Assembly: GCF_001815905.1 (NCBI RefSeq)
Contig: NZ_KV823236.1
Coordinates: forward strand, 8,527 to 72,526
Reading direction: 5' to 3'
DNA length: 64,000 nucleotides
Source: Brevibacterium sp. HMSC07C04
GTDB taxonomy: Bacteria > Actinomycetota > Actinomycetes > Actinomycetales > Brevibacteriaceae
In this document: in pieces, positions 3,636-8,745 of the stretch
Layout: each line of letters starts with the position of its first letter
Numbering within the stretch: the first letter of the stretch is position 1
Notes under the pieces: model-generated
Database searches by the model: none
Told to the model about the DNA's origin: nothing
The model's input: the letters and a program-made list of their open reading frames with translations, nothing else
Translations under genes and position numbers: made by a program

Positions 3636-4259
3636 TCAAGCGTGAGCTTTAATCAATGCGCACCAGGTAGTGAAATGGTCATCCGTCGCGTCCAGTATCA
3701 CCGCGGGCAACTGGTCCATGAGCTTTGCGACGCTGGCGTTCTTCCCCATGCGTTTGTACCCAATTGTTCCGGGCGTGAAGACTCCATGGAAAGCGAGGTG
3801 ACGAATCCCTGCAGCCAACGGGGTCACATCATCGCCAGAAGCCTCTAGCTCTGTGAGCTTCGCAACCAACTTGTTGCTGTCAAGGTGCTTGTTCATGGCG
3901 TCCCGCAGCCGCTTACTCCCGTCGGCCCTGTAGTAGTTCGCAATCTCCGGCGACTCAACTCGAACTCTCCGTTGAGGGTGGTCTGGTTCGCGTTTGGCTA
4001 TCTTCGTGTATCCATTGATCGCCTTCTCCAGCGATTCGAGCACCGAGTAGGCCATCCCGCAGCGAATAATTGCCACATAACCTGAAGGCGTGTCCTCGGT
4101 GACATAACCATCGAGCTCGATCTTCATACTTCGCGCAGCACGATAGCGTGCCTGGAACCGTGGGAATGCACCTCGAATTTCTTCTTGACGACGATCGTCC
4201 AGCCCCTCCAAAAACTCATTGAATAAGTCCCAAGACTTAGGGATGTTGTCGGCTGGCAT
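3636..4259 (-). CDS. HEPN-like protein of unknown function, candidate defence component
   Basis: A 207-residue soluble, largely helical protein. The ATG at 4259 is preceded by GAGGGAGG at a suitable distance. I do not recognise the family by overall sequence. Near the C-terminus is R153-H-L-A-F-H158, which fits the R-phi-x3-H motif (phi = N, D or H) of HEPN ribonucleases, but this is only a motif match. A stretch rich in basic residues (KREPDHPQRRVRV) lies around residue 90. The gene is transcribed divergently from a HEPN-CBS gene, which is followed by a type IIG-like restriction enzyme. The neighbourhood suggests an RNA-cutting effector or a partner of one. It could also be a non-catalytic abortive-infection-type protein. 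Confidence 0.5.
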   Translation of the reverse strand: MPADNIPKSWDLFNEFLEGLDDRRQEEIRGAFPRFQARYRAARSMKIELDGYVTEDTPSGYVAIIRCGMAYSVLESLEKAINGYTKIAKREPDHPQRRVRVESPEIANYYRADGSKRLRDAMNKHLDSNKLVAKLTELEASGDDVTPLAAGIRHLAFHGVFTPGTIGYKRMGKNASVAKLMDQLPAVILDATDDHFTTWCALIKAHA

Positions 4260-4502
4260 TGGCGGGGCCTCCCTCGAACGCTCATAAGTGTCTGCTTAGA
4301 CGCTATCGACTTACACCCTCCTTTAGAAGAGGGACTACCACGACATCAGGTGTCACATGAACTGCGGCGCTAGAGGGTACGAGATACGGGTTTGGCCAAG
4401 ACCCGAACACTCACTGATCCAGACGGATCCCCACTGGTCGAGCGCTTAGGTGCGTAATTCGGATAATGAGATGACTTAATGTCAATGACGAAAGGTTATG
4501 TT
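4260..4502. promoter_or_regulatory. Divergent promoter region between the two HEPN-like genes
   Basis: This gap must hold the promoters of both divergent genes. Two symmetric elements are visible. One is a hairpin CCCTC/GAGGG at 4316-4333. The other is a near-palindrome at 4387-4405, CGGGT/ACCCG arms around TTGGCCAA. The second could bind a regulator controlling both directions. No -10/-35 pair could be assigned confidently. Confidence 0.35.
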
Positions 4503-5243
4503 GTGACGCCAACCCTCGAACCAACCGAGCTGCTTGATCGATTCCTTTCCGCTGTCGAGGAGATCGTGGAGATCCTCTCGAAAAGATACAACCGCGAGTT
4601 TAAGGGCATCGGTGAAGCAATACGCACTGCCTATGATCAGAAAGATCCGGTTGTCCGGAGGAACTTCAGGATGCTGAAAACGCTGGCAGACCTCCGTAAC
4701 GCGATTCAACACGGTGACCGCAAACAGGGGATGCCTGTTGCGATACCGCGTAAAGACACAGTCGAGTTGATCGAAACCCTAGAGAAACAGATCAGGCAGG
4801 CGCCGCAGGTGAAGGACCACATGATCAAAGACGTTGATGTGCTGTCCTCCATTCATTCATTGGCCGATGCAGCTGCCGAGGTCATCAAATACAACATCTC
4901 CCAGATGCCTGTCTATGACGGTAGGCAGTACATCGGCTTGTTCACCACCAATGCCATGGCGCGCTGGCTCAGTAAACACATCGATATTGACGGAGTGTTG
5001 ATGGCTGAGAAAGTCACCGTTGCAGAGGTCTTGGAGTGTGCTGAGGAGAACGAGAAGGTGAAGTTCTACAAACCCACCACACCAGTCCACGAAGTCTGCA
5101 GTGATTTGGGCTCTGCCGATGGACCTGTTGCCTGCTTGATCACGACCGATGGCAAAAAGACCGGCCAGCTCCAAGGACTGGTCACACGCTTTGACGTGTC
5201 CAGGATTCTCAAGGAGACGTCGATAGAGAATAGACGTCGATGA
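4503..5243 (+). CDS. HEPN-like domain fused to a CBS domain pair
   Basis: A 246-residue protein. The GTG at 4503 was preferred because GAAAGG ends 7 bases upstream; in-frame ATGs at 4479 and 4485 lack a ribosome site but would add only 6-8 residues. The N-terminal ~110 residues are helical and contain R65-N-A-I-Q-H70 (LADLRNAIQHGD), which fits the HEPN R-phi-x3-H motif. From about residue 110 to the end lie two CBS-like repeats (DVLSSIHSLADAAAEVI..MPVYDG..IGLFTT, then a second ending GLVTRFDVSRIL). CBS pairs bind adenosine-containing ligands such as AMP, ATP or S-adenosylmethionine. A nucleotide-gated HEPN RNase is a reasonable inference. The gene sits between a divergent HEPN-like gene and a downstream restriction-modification gene. 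Confidence 0.6.
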   Translation: MTPTLEPTELLDRFLSAVEEIVEILSKRYNREFKGIGEAIRTAYDQKDPVVRRNFRMLKTLADLRNAIQHGDRKQGMPVAIPRKDTVELIETLEKQIRQAPQVKDHMIKDVDVLSSIHSLADAAAEVIKYNISQMPVYDGRQYIGLFTTNAMARWLSKHIDIDGVLMAEKVTVAEVLECAEENEKVKFYKPTTPVHEVCSDLGSADGPVACLITTDGKKTGQLQGLVTRFDVSRILKETSIENRRR

Positions 5244-5535
5244 TTCACAGTGGTCGGCGTGGTTCGGCGGTGTGGTTCGGCGGCTTACGCCTCACGTGAC
5301 CGTAGAGGTCCCCTGACCAGTTCCTTACCCACGAGTTCGTCATCCGGAAAGACTCCACCGTCGAGTAACAAAGGCTTGTGACGAGGGGCAGTGCGTGCTG
5401 ATCCACCGTTTCAATCAGCGAATTGTCAATAATGGGTTGATAAACAAACAACTTGACAGCGGGGTGTTGGTATGGCCGTCGATGGCGAACAGATTCTGAA
5501 ACTAGCTGGAATACTCGACCCAGGTTCAAAGTGCT
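5244..5535 (+). other. Intergenic region upstream of the restriction-modification gene
   Basis: 292 bases without a convincing gene. The 12-mer GTGGTTCGGCGG occurs twice in tandem (5259-5270 and 5272-5283). A TTGACA element lies near 5453 but has no well-spaced -10 partner. The region is more AT-rich around 5420-5460, a possible promoter for the downstream gene. Confidence 0.4.
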
Positions 5536-8500
5536 ATGAGACACAGCATTGCTGCTGATCCAGAGGCTCAACTGACGGTTCCGGTGTCCAACCTGTTCAA
5601 GGCTCTGTCCGAAGTGTTTGGGATCGGTGACATGGGCCTGATCCGTGAAGCACACTTGGACGGCGTTCGACCGGATTTTGCCGTGACTTTGAACGGGAGG
5701 CCATGCGGGTGGGTTGAGTTGAAAGCTCCGGAACACACCCTGGTGGGAGAGAAGTGGCGCGGTCGTGAGAAGGATCAGTGGTCGCTTCTCGCAGAGCTTG
5801 ATGCATTAATCGTGTCGAACGGTGAAGAAGCATACTTTTATCGAACTGGCTCAGTTATCTCGACTGCGACACTTCCGATTGGCAGCCCTGACAAGTGGGA
5901 CCCGAGTGAGCTTCAACGAATGTTGGAGTTGTTCGTGGCGATGAAACCGACCCCGATCAAGAGGGTCAGCCAGCTTGCATCACGCTTGGCTCCTTTGGCC
6001 AAGTTCATGCGCCTCCGCCTTGACGAAGGGTTGGAGAACAAACGTCGAGAGGTGCTTGAAGCAAAAGAGGCGTGGGACCAGACGGTCCACATGACCACCT
6101 CGTCCGAACAGTTCTCCAGCGATGTTGCACAGGTGATCGCCTACTCGATGGCAATTGCCGGACTCACCGGGCAAGCTGACCGAGACCATGACGGGATTGT
6201 GACACTGCTGGAGGCGAAAGACACTCTCAGCATCGGGAACCGCAATGTCTTGGCTGCTGCGCTCGGGCCTGTGCTTGGAATCCCTGAACTCATCGAATAC
6301 ATCAACCCGGAATTGGAAGCGATCGTTCGCCTGATTTCGAGCATGGACACCAAGGCAATCAGGTCAGCCCAGGATTCGCGTGGTGAGGCATGGCTGTGGT
6401 TCTACGAAGACTTCTTGGGGAAGTACGATCCCGAGGCGCGCAAGAGGTCTGGCGTCTACTACACCCCGACAAGTGTGGTGAACTGCCAAGTCAGGATCGT
6501 TGACGACATCCTTCGCCGTAGATTCAGACAGAGACTCGGTTTTGGTTCAAAATCAGTTGTCACTCTCGACCCTGCTGCCGGTAGCGGCACTTACCCCCTG
6601 GCGGTGATCGATCGAGCGTGCGATGTTGCCCATGATGAGCGTGGTAAGGCGGGCGTTGAGCAAGTGGCTCGCAATCTGACGAAGAACCTCCTGGCGTTCG
6701 AAATCCTTCCAGGTCCGTTCGCGGTCGCACATTTGCGTATCGGTGAACGCCTGGTCCACAACGTGAATCAGATCTTCCAAGACAGTGATATCGGCGTCTA
6801 CCTCACTGACACGTTGGAGGATCCACACATGCCCACACGCAGAGGCCTGTTCGGTGACGCGCGAATTCTGGCTGAAGCTGCCGAGAAAGCTCGGAAGATC
6901 AAGGCGGAGCAGAAGATCACTGTGGCGATTGGTAATCCACCCTACGATCGTGGTACTGCCGGTATGGGTGGATGGGTTGAGTCAGGTGACTCCAACAACG
7001 ATCCGCTGTTCGACGATGTGATTAATCCGGCAAAAGAGAATGGCGTTATCTTCTCGGCCCAGGCATCGTTGTACAACCTGTACGTGTACTTCTGGCGATG
7101 GGCTATCTGGAAGGCGTTCCAGCAAGCCCCTGAAGACCAAGCTGTCATCTCGTTCATCACGGCGTCGTCGTGGTTGGATGGACCCGCATTCGTTGGGTTA
7201 CGAAAACTCGCAGTCGACACTGCGAATGACATCTGGGTCATCGATCTCGGCGGCGAGGGACGCGGTGCTCGGAAAGAAGAAAATATCTTCGATATCCAGT
7301 CTCCGGTAGCGATTGTCACACTTGTGAAGTCAGGTAAGGCTAGTAAGACAGCGGACGTCTACTATCGCCGCGTTCATGGAACACGTGAAGAAAAATTCGC
7401 GGAGCTGGACAAAATCGATCGTCTCCACTCGGACGATGAAGGATGGACGCTGGTGTCTGCACCCAACGGCGAAAAACTTGCCCCGGAACCTGCCGTTCAC
7501 GGTTGGTTCAATTACGTTCAGCTACTGGATCTATTTCCTTGGGGTCAACCGGGGATCAAGTACAACCGTCTTTGGCCCGTTGCCCCCTCAAGAAACGTGC
7601 TATCTCGACGTTGGCGAGAACTTCTCGCTGACGAGTCAGCGTCGAAACGCGCCGAGAAGTTTGTCACCTCAAAGACTGGTAGAAACATTTTCACGAAGGT
7701 GTCGTCACTACCAAAGATCGCAGATCTTCCAGTTGATGCTGAATACCAACCGTTAGTTCGTCTTGGCTGGCGATCGTTTGACAGGCAATGGACTTTTGAT
7801 GACCCTCGTTTAGCAAAGACAGACAGCCCGGCTCTATGGCAATCCTTGTCGCCCAAACAGTTGTTCATGGTTTCACCCTGGTCCGCACGAATCAGCGATG
7901 GTCCGGCGGCTACGGTTTCAACCGCAGTCCCCGATTTGCACTGTTACTGCAATCGAGGAGGTAAAGACGTCATCCCTCTCTATCGAGACGCTGAGTGTCT
8001 TCAACCCAATATCGCAAGTGGTCTCCTTGAGCACCTGAAGGACGGGTTGGGTCGAGAGGTCTCACCCGAAGACTTGCTGGCCTACTGTTTCGCTTTGGTC
8101 GCACACGATGGGTACAGCCAGATGTTTCAGGAGCCGCTTGGATCCTCTCCAGTTCGCGTTCCGATGACCAAGAGCCGAGAACTCTTCGACCGTGCTGTGG
8201 TGCTTGGTGAAGAACTGTTGTGGTTACAGACATACGGCGAACGTTTCGTCAGTGACGATCGGCCTGTCGGCGTGGTGCCTAGAATTCCTGGGCTGTCGTG
8301 GGAAGAGTCAGTAACGGCTCTTCCCGAGTCGATGAAGTCGATCAGTTACGACCGCGCATCCCAGGAGCTCCACATCGGAACCGGGCTCATCAAGGGAGTT
8401 CGTCCGGAGGTATGGGACTTCAACGTTTCGGGAATGAACGTTCTGAGCAAGTGGTTGGGTTCCCGCACTAGAAAAGGGATCGGTCGTGCTGCAGGAAAAG

Positions 8501-8745
8501 CTGCAACGCCACTTGACCGAATTCGGCCCACTGAGTGGGAAGACGAGTGGAACGACGAGCTTCTCGATCTGCTTCGTGTCCTCACCAGAACAGTTGAACT
8601 AGGTGAACAACAGATGGAGCTTCTTGAAGCCATCGTTGAGTCAGACCTGTTCACGCCGGACGAGCTACCTAAGCCGACCGACGATCAGAGAAAAGTGCCC
8701 AAGACGATTGAACGAGAGTACGGACAGGGCACATTCAGCTTCTGA
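5536..8745 (+). CDS. Single-chain type IIG-like restriction-modification enzyme (nuclease plus N6-adenine methyltransferase)
   Basis: A 1069-residue protein. The N-terminus carries a PD-(D/E)xK-type site, with D47 in RPDFAV and E61-L-K63 in WVELKAP. A linker with helical repeats and the typical RSGVYYTPTSVV segment (about residues 310-325) leads into the methyltransferase. Its motif I is LDPAAGSGTYPL (about 345-356) and its catalytic motif IV is N467-P-P-Y. The ~500-residue C-terminus probably holds the target-recognition domain. No helicase motifs are visible, so it resembles Eco57I/MmeI-type IIG enzymes, or the methylase half of type ISP enzymes, and not a complete LlaBIII-type enzyme. The start codon has only a weak ribosome site. 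It lies 292 bases downstream of the HEPN-CBS gene on the same strand. Confidence 0.8.
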   Translation: MRHSIAADPEAQLTVPVSNLFKALSEVFGIGDMGLIREAHLDGVRPDFAVTLNGRPCGWVELKAPEHTLVGEKWRGREKDQWSLLAELDALIVSNGEEAYFYRTGSVISTATLPIGSPDKWDPSELQRMLELFVAMKPTPIKRVSQLASRLAPLAKFMRLRLDEGLENKRREVLEAKEAWDQTVHMTTSSEQFSSDVAQVIAYSMAIAGLTGQADRDHDGIVTLLEAKDTLSIGNRNVLAAALGPVLGIPELIEYINPELEAIVRLISSMDTKAIRSAQDSRGEAWLWFYEDFLGKYDPEARKRSGVYYTPTSVVNCQVRIVDDILRRRFRQRLGFGSKSVVTLDPAAGSGTYPLAVIDRACDVAHDERGKAGVEQVARNLTKNLLAFEILPGPFAVAHLRIGERLVHNVNQIFQDSDIGVYLTDTLEDPHMPTRRGLFGDARILAEAAEKARKIKAEQKITVAIGNPPYDRGTAGMGGWVESGDSNNDPLFDDVINPAKENGVIFSAQASLYNLYVYFWRWAIWKAFQQAPEDQAVISFITASSWLDGPAFVGLRKLAVDTANDIWVIDLGGEGRGARKEENIFDIQSPVAIVTLVKSGKASKTADVYYRRVHGTREEKFAELDKIDRLHSDDEGWTLVSAPNGEKLAPEPAVHGWFNYVQLLDLFPWGQPGIKYNRLWPVAPSRNVLSRRWRELLADESASKRAEKFVTSKTGRNIFTKVSSLPKIADLPVDAEYQPLVRLGWRSFDRQWTFDDPRLAKTDSPALWQSLSPKQLFMVSPWSARISDGPAATVSTAVPDLHCYCNRGGKDVIPLYRDAECLQPNIASGLLEHLKDGLGREVSPEDLLAYCFALVAHDGYSQMFQEPLGSSPVRVPMTKSRELFDRAVVLGEELLWLQTYGERFVSDDRPVGVVPRIPGLSWEESVTALPESMKSISYDRASQELHIGTGLIKGVRPEVWDFNVSGMNVLSKWLGSRTRKGIGRAAGKAATPLDRIRPTEWEDEWNDELLDLLRVLTRTVELGEQQMELLEAIVESDLFTPDELPKPTDDQRKVPKTIEREYGQGTFSF

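Follow-up and report, generated by a model that had tools for sequence, protein, structure and literature searches.

The window, a 64,000-nucleotide stretch of DNA, comes from a 2.47 Mb actinobacterial genome near Brevibacterium ravenspurgense. Its forward strand carries a gene for a protein with a predicted HEPN domain followed by a pair of CBS domains (4479..5243, +; hereafter the HEPN-CBS gene), whose downstream neighbour on the same strand encodes a type ISP single-chain restriction-modification enzyme of 1069 aa (5536..8745, +). The HEPN-CBS frame is open for 246 codons from GTG 4503 (4503-5243, +) and extends upstream to ATG 4479, which would yield a product of 254 aa. Because an AAAGG lies seven bases 5' of the GTG and the N-terminal length counted from that codon matches the homologues, either start is possible. 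That the frame is real is shown by a copy in B. ravenspurgense, which is 91% identical and differs by 46 synonymous and 23 nonsynonymous codon changes.

The first-pass annotation had described the downstream neighbour as a methyltransferase. It does use S-adenosylmethionine (SAM), but Pfam and PADLOC identify a whole restriction-modification enzyme, in which an N6 methylase (N6_Mtase, 7.6e-7) and a Type_ISP_C specificity domain (1.1e-70) share a single chain, as is typical of type ISP enzymes; the PADLOC model REase_MTase_IIG matches at 1.2e-255. Its N-terminal nuclease is weakly matched (HSDR_N, 0.0087, below the cut-off). The frame from ATG 5536 falls short of the PADLOC model by about 16 N-terminal residues, and ATG 5472 opens a 28-codon frame (5472-5558) that ends within the first codons of the type ISP gene. 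A frameshift or an alternative start at the 5' end of this gene is possible.

Judged by its sequence, the C-terminal half of the HEPN-CBS protein is unambiguously a CBS pair. Pfam PF00571 matches it in two stretches (1.9e-9; 38.1 bits against a cut-off of 24), bearing out the earlier assignment of a CBS pair, and CBS domains were found by Pfam in all eight homologues scanned. The first CBS motif (residues 111-164; 4809..4970, +) includes SQMPVY, whose tyrosine, Y146, is retained in six of nine homologues. The second (about residues 179-246; 5013..5216, +) includes GLVTRFD, in which the invariant G233 and D239 fit the G-h-h-T-x-x-D ribose-binding signature. This signature of CBS domains holds the ribose of adenosyl ligands, and the invariance of its G and D here is consistent with binding of such a ligand. 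The suggestion that the ligand might be SAM is possible but otherwise unsupported: it is a guess from the SAM-using neighbour and from the nearest PDB CBS match, the MJ0100 CBS pair (3kpb-3kpd), whose E=1e-4 reflects generic CBS similarity.

Directly N-terminal to the CBS pair lies the predicted HEPN domain (residues 15-107; 4521..4799, +), with four helices predicted at residues 15-40, 42-54, 57-78 and 92-107, positions that would suit the four-helix HEPN fold, in a low-confidence model (AlphaFold pLDDT 40 and 45 with single-sequence and two-sequence input, respectively). Anantharaman et al. recognise HEPN RNases by sequence features of two kinds, an Rx4-6H-type motif whose arginine is followed by N, D or H and, in many families, Ex3[KR] (PMC3710099). 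The Brevibacterium protein has both: R73-N-A-I-Q-H78, an R-N-x3-H RNase motif (4695..4712, +), and E31-I-L-S-K35 in helix 1 (4569..4583, +). As R[NDH]x3H arises in 3.6% of shuffled copies of the protein, that motif alone is weak evidence. R73, N74 and H78 are invariant in nine homologues and make up three of the seven non-start invariant columns of the nine-member alignment (post hoc p about 2e-5), and an E/D-x3-K/R precedes the RN by 40-45 residues (about 43) in 9/9, and by about 42 in the Brevibacterium protein.

Profile searches gave sub-threshold HEPN matches. No Pfam HEPN profile reaches its curated cut-off in the Brevibacterium protein (best 13-16 bits against 24.4). The cut-off is set for the library rather than on biochemical grounds, and many divergent HEPN families score below it. 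HEPN_Apea matches at a sub-threshold 0.12 over the full length and 0.021 with the N-terminus alone, and several other members have sub-threshold Pfam matches, three of them to HEPN_RiboL-PSP (best 0.0014) and two to HEPN_Apea (best 0.0047). Compared profile to profile, the family scored weakly against HEPN sets (prob 3.9 and 0.7), in an analysis where two genuine HEPN sets also missed each other, and PADLOC returned weak matches alone, to HEPN-bearing models and PDC-S64. With the CBS match, the invariant motif and these HEPN matches in relatives, the order of domains given in the first-pass annotation, HEPN before CBS, is supported at the level of sequence. The N-terminal profile also matched DNA polymerase kappa (E about 0.02), which we attribute to chance; the catalytic arginine is missing there.

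Intact relatives occur in B. ravenspurgense (91%), on Rhodococcus and Chlorohelix plasmids, in the actinobacterial genomes G383 and G066, in G609, and on two low-GC contigs, L038 (OR846607.1) and L039 (OR849199.1). The nine intact members aligned span 19-91% identity to the Brevibacterium protein, and besides the start only R73, N74, H78, P144, G225, G233 and D239 are invariant across them. Broken copies of the gene are present on pBL90 and two Rhodococcus plasmids. The gene is rare and patchily distributed among actinobacteria: few genomes have it, and it is then carried by plasmids or islands. Of the 55 genomes matched by the profile, most have CBS-only matches (positions from about 85 on) and were excluded as members. 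Viral contigs, scanned with several members and alignments as queries, yielded no relative, and distant blastn searches of E. coli genomes with two homologues gave no match. The records for L038 and L039 name them as phages of Enterococcus and Listeria, but the presence of lspA, rluD and, on L038, fhs and pyr genes makes them look like bacterial chromosome.

The neighbours of the gene vary from locus to locus, with no conserved or obligate partner. Among the loci inspected it stands mostly beside restriction or other defence genes, an association we regard as suggestive. On the Chlorohelix plasmid an Eco57I-type methylase gene precedes it so closely that the stop codon of the one overlaps the start codon of the other. 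In G066 a helicase/DNA methylase/DUF499 cluster ends 48 bp before the gene, and an integrase is encoded nearby. A methylase/restriction pair lies 3 kb from it in Rhodococcus GA1, the pBL90 copy adjoins SIR2 and HerA genes, and a YobI-type ATPase is encoded near the G609 gene. The B. ravenspurgense gene has another left flank than the gene in the window, lying against a truncated aldo/keto reductase gene, and in G383 the setting is a non-defence one, with a nitroreductase alongside.

The architecture had been called unusual. It is rare in frequency, but both the HEPN-CBS fusion and the proposal that CBS ligands regulate its RNA cleavage were published in 2013 (Anantharaman et al.; PMC3710099). 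The Brevibacterium protein shares the domains of the HEPN-CBS and HEPN-CBS-HD fusions described there, in which CBS would sense a nucleotide and HEPN cut RNA; unlike the latter it has no HD domain, and we liken it to alr3009 and gi 118580987 by their description. A functional parallel is offered by DS-11, a single protein with CBS and HEPN domains reported in 2026 with DefensePredictor, which protects E. coli from phage and loses this ability through HEPN mutations or the CBS mutation Y157A (PMC13092281). It is mainly by analogy with these mutants that ligand-gated control of an RNase, as envisaged in the first-pass annotation, becomes plausible here. Like DS-11, which we know by its description, the Brevibacterium protein joins HEPN and CBS in one chain, appears to need no partner gene and is predicted to bind an adenine-type ligand; unlike that E. 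coli system, its gene is actinobacterial and sits beside restriction genes. For such a pairing of an RNase with restriction-modification, PrrC is the precedent (PMC3710099). As with PrrC/PrrI, a gene here for a predicted HEPN RNase adjoins a restriction-modification system and a second-line logic is possible, but PrrC is gated by an ABC-type NTPase, where the Brevibacterium protein has CBS domains, and is paired with a type Ic system.

Given the 2013 fusions (PMC3710099) and DS-11 (PMC13092281), the Brevibacterium protein is probably a further member of a known phage-defence kind. To what was published we add an actinobacterial branch, the pattern of residues conserved in it and the tendency of its genes to lie with restriction genes. 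CBS-gated HEPN nucleases have, to our knowledge, barely been explored, and we know of one validated member. The diverse relatives show which residues never change and place the gene beside swappable restriction enzymes, and ligand identity and a restriction back-up role thereby become directly testable.

We propose, with a probability of roughly 0.6, that the protein is a CBS-gated HEPN RNase that acts as a single-chain phage-defence effector. The HEPN domain, probably dimeric, would be a metal-independent endoribonuclease restrained by the CBS pair, which would bind an adenine nucleotide or a related metabolite through CBS motif 2 (G233, D239). RNA cleavage would then be released, and phage growth halted, when the ligand changes at infection or the neighbouring restriction enzyme is lost, giving a second line of defence after restriction-modification; this back-up role is probable. 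The putative RNase and its gating are suggested by the unambiguous CBS pair and by the conservation of RN-x3-H and Ex3[KR] in 9/9 homologues and of the CBS glycine and aspartate. A part in defence is suggested by the restriction and defence settings, the rarity of the gene, its broken plasmid copies, and the DS-11 and PrrC precedents. Counting against the proposal are the HEPN models below cut-off, the weak profile comparison, the low confidence of the structural models, the varied neighbours and the occasional non-defence setting.

The non-defence settings bear on another reading, in which the protein is a ligand-sensing housekeeping RNase whose HEPN domain trims cellular RNA in response to the level of adenylate or another nucleotide. 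Nucleotide-responsive control of RNA was indeed what Anantharaman et al. proposed for HEPN-CBS proteins (PMC3710099). Both L038 and L039 have lspA and rluD immediately after the homologue, and L038 in addition has fhs ahead of it and pyr genes further on; this is a core chromosomal setting. Enterococcus faecalis EF1724, a 'CBS domain-containing protein', is genus-core and important for fitness, and its gene presumably lies before lspA, like those of the low-GC-contig homologues. The Brevibacterium branch, however, is rare and often broken, and its genes, carried by islands and plasmids, adjoin defence genes; we consider a housekeeping role unlikely for it.

A third reading draws on the DNA between the HEPN-CBS gene and the type ISP gene. 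An 88-bp leader (5391..5478, +), which ends just past ATG 5472 and contains an inverted repeat (TGTCAA/TTGACA), is identical at 87/88 positions in B. ravenspurgense, where the intergenic remainder is about 73% identical (by subtraction). There the gene that the leader enters, past the ATG, is of MmeI type (MmeI_N, 6.3e-13), not type ISP, and its frame breaks after 84 codons. In the two genomes the HEPN-CBS gene, followed by a nearly unchanged leader, precedes different restriction genes on the same strand. This would suit a restriction accessory without RNase effector function that controls the expression or activity of the adjacent enzyme, possibly through the level of SAM, and the SAM-using neighbour and the MJ0100 match could be taken the same way. 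Set against this, strict conservation of the RN-x3-H triad points to catalysis, Pfam found no DNA-binding domain, and the leader, with no other strong match in 297 genomes of the order, is known from only two genomes, both in a single clade, and could be a tract left by recombination. The predicted fold of the leader RNA is unremarkable (z=-0.36), an Rfam search gave no match, and a consensus scan found no promoter-like site. We think an accessory role of this kind quite improbable.

A bolder version of the CBS-gated effector is likewise a long shot. The constant HEPN-CBS gene and its leader would form a portable guard module ahead of interchangeable SAM-dependent restriction enzymes, sensing a metabolite of their reaction (SAM or a derivative) or phage attack, and arresting the infection once restriction has been disabled. 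In lactic acid bacteria, a sister lineage would have been domesticated into a core regulator. Least probable, and in our view very unlikely, is a reading in which the N-terminal helices cap a plain CBS sensor and form no HEPN domain, which would fit the lack of above-cut-off HEPN matches and the low pLDDT but not the invariant triad, the near-constant spacing of the second motif or the independent weak HEPN matches in several members.

Upstream of the HEPN-CBS gene and divergent from it, a gene for a 207-aa protein without a family match (3636..4259, -) contains GIRHLAFHG, an R-H-x3-H pattern. At what seems the corresponding place, the one relative detected (L066:362-937, 29% identity) reads RNIHAH, and from these patterns the protein is possibly a second, unnamed HEPN-like family. 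A separate HEPN_Apea protein is encoded in the same genome outside the window (G000:C51:44627-45016, -; 6.2e-24). At the left end of the window, the frame at 21-1421 encodes, as does L001:3198-6071, a cell-wall anchored protein with long DPKDPE/DPEAKDPE-type repeats. In B. ravenspurgense the repeat-bearing frame is far longer, at 957 aa; part of the difference arises because the window edge cuts the copy at 21-1421.
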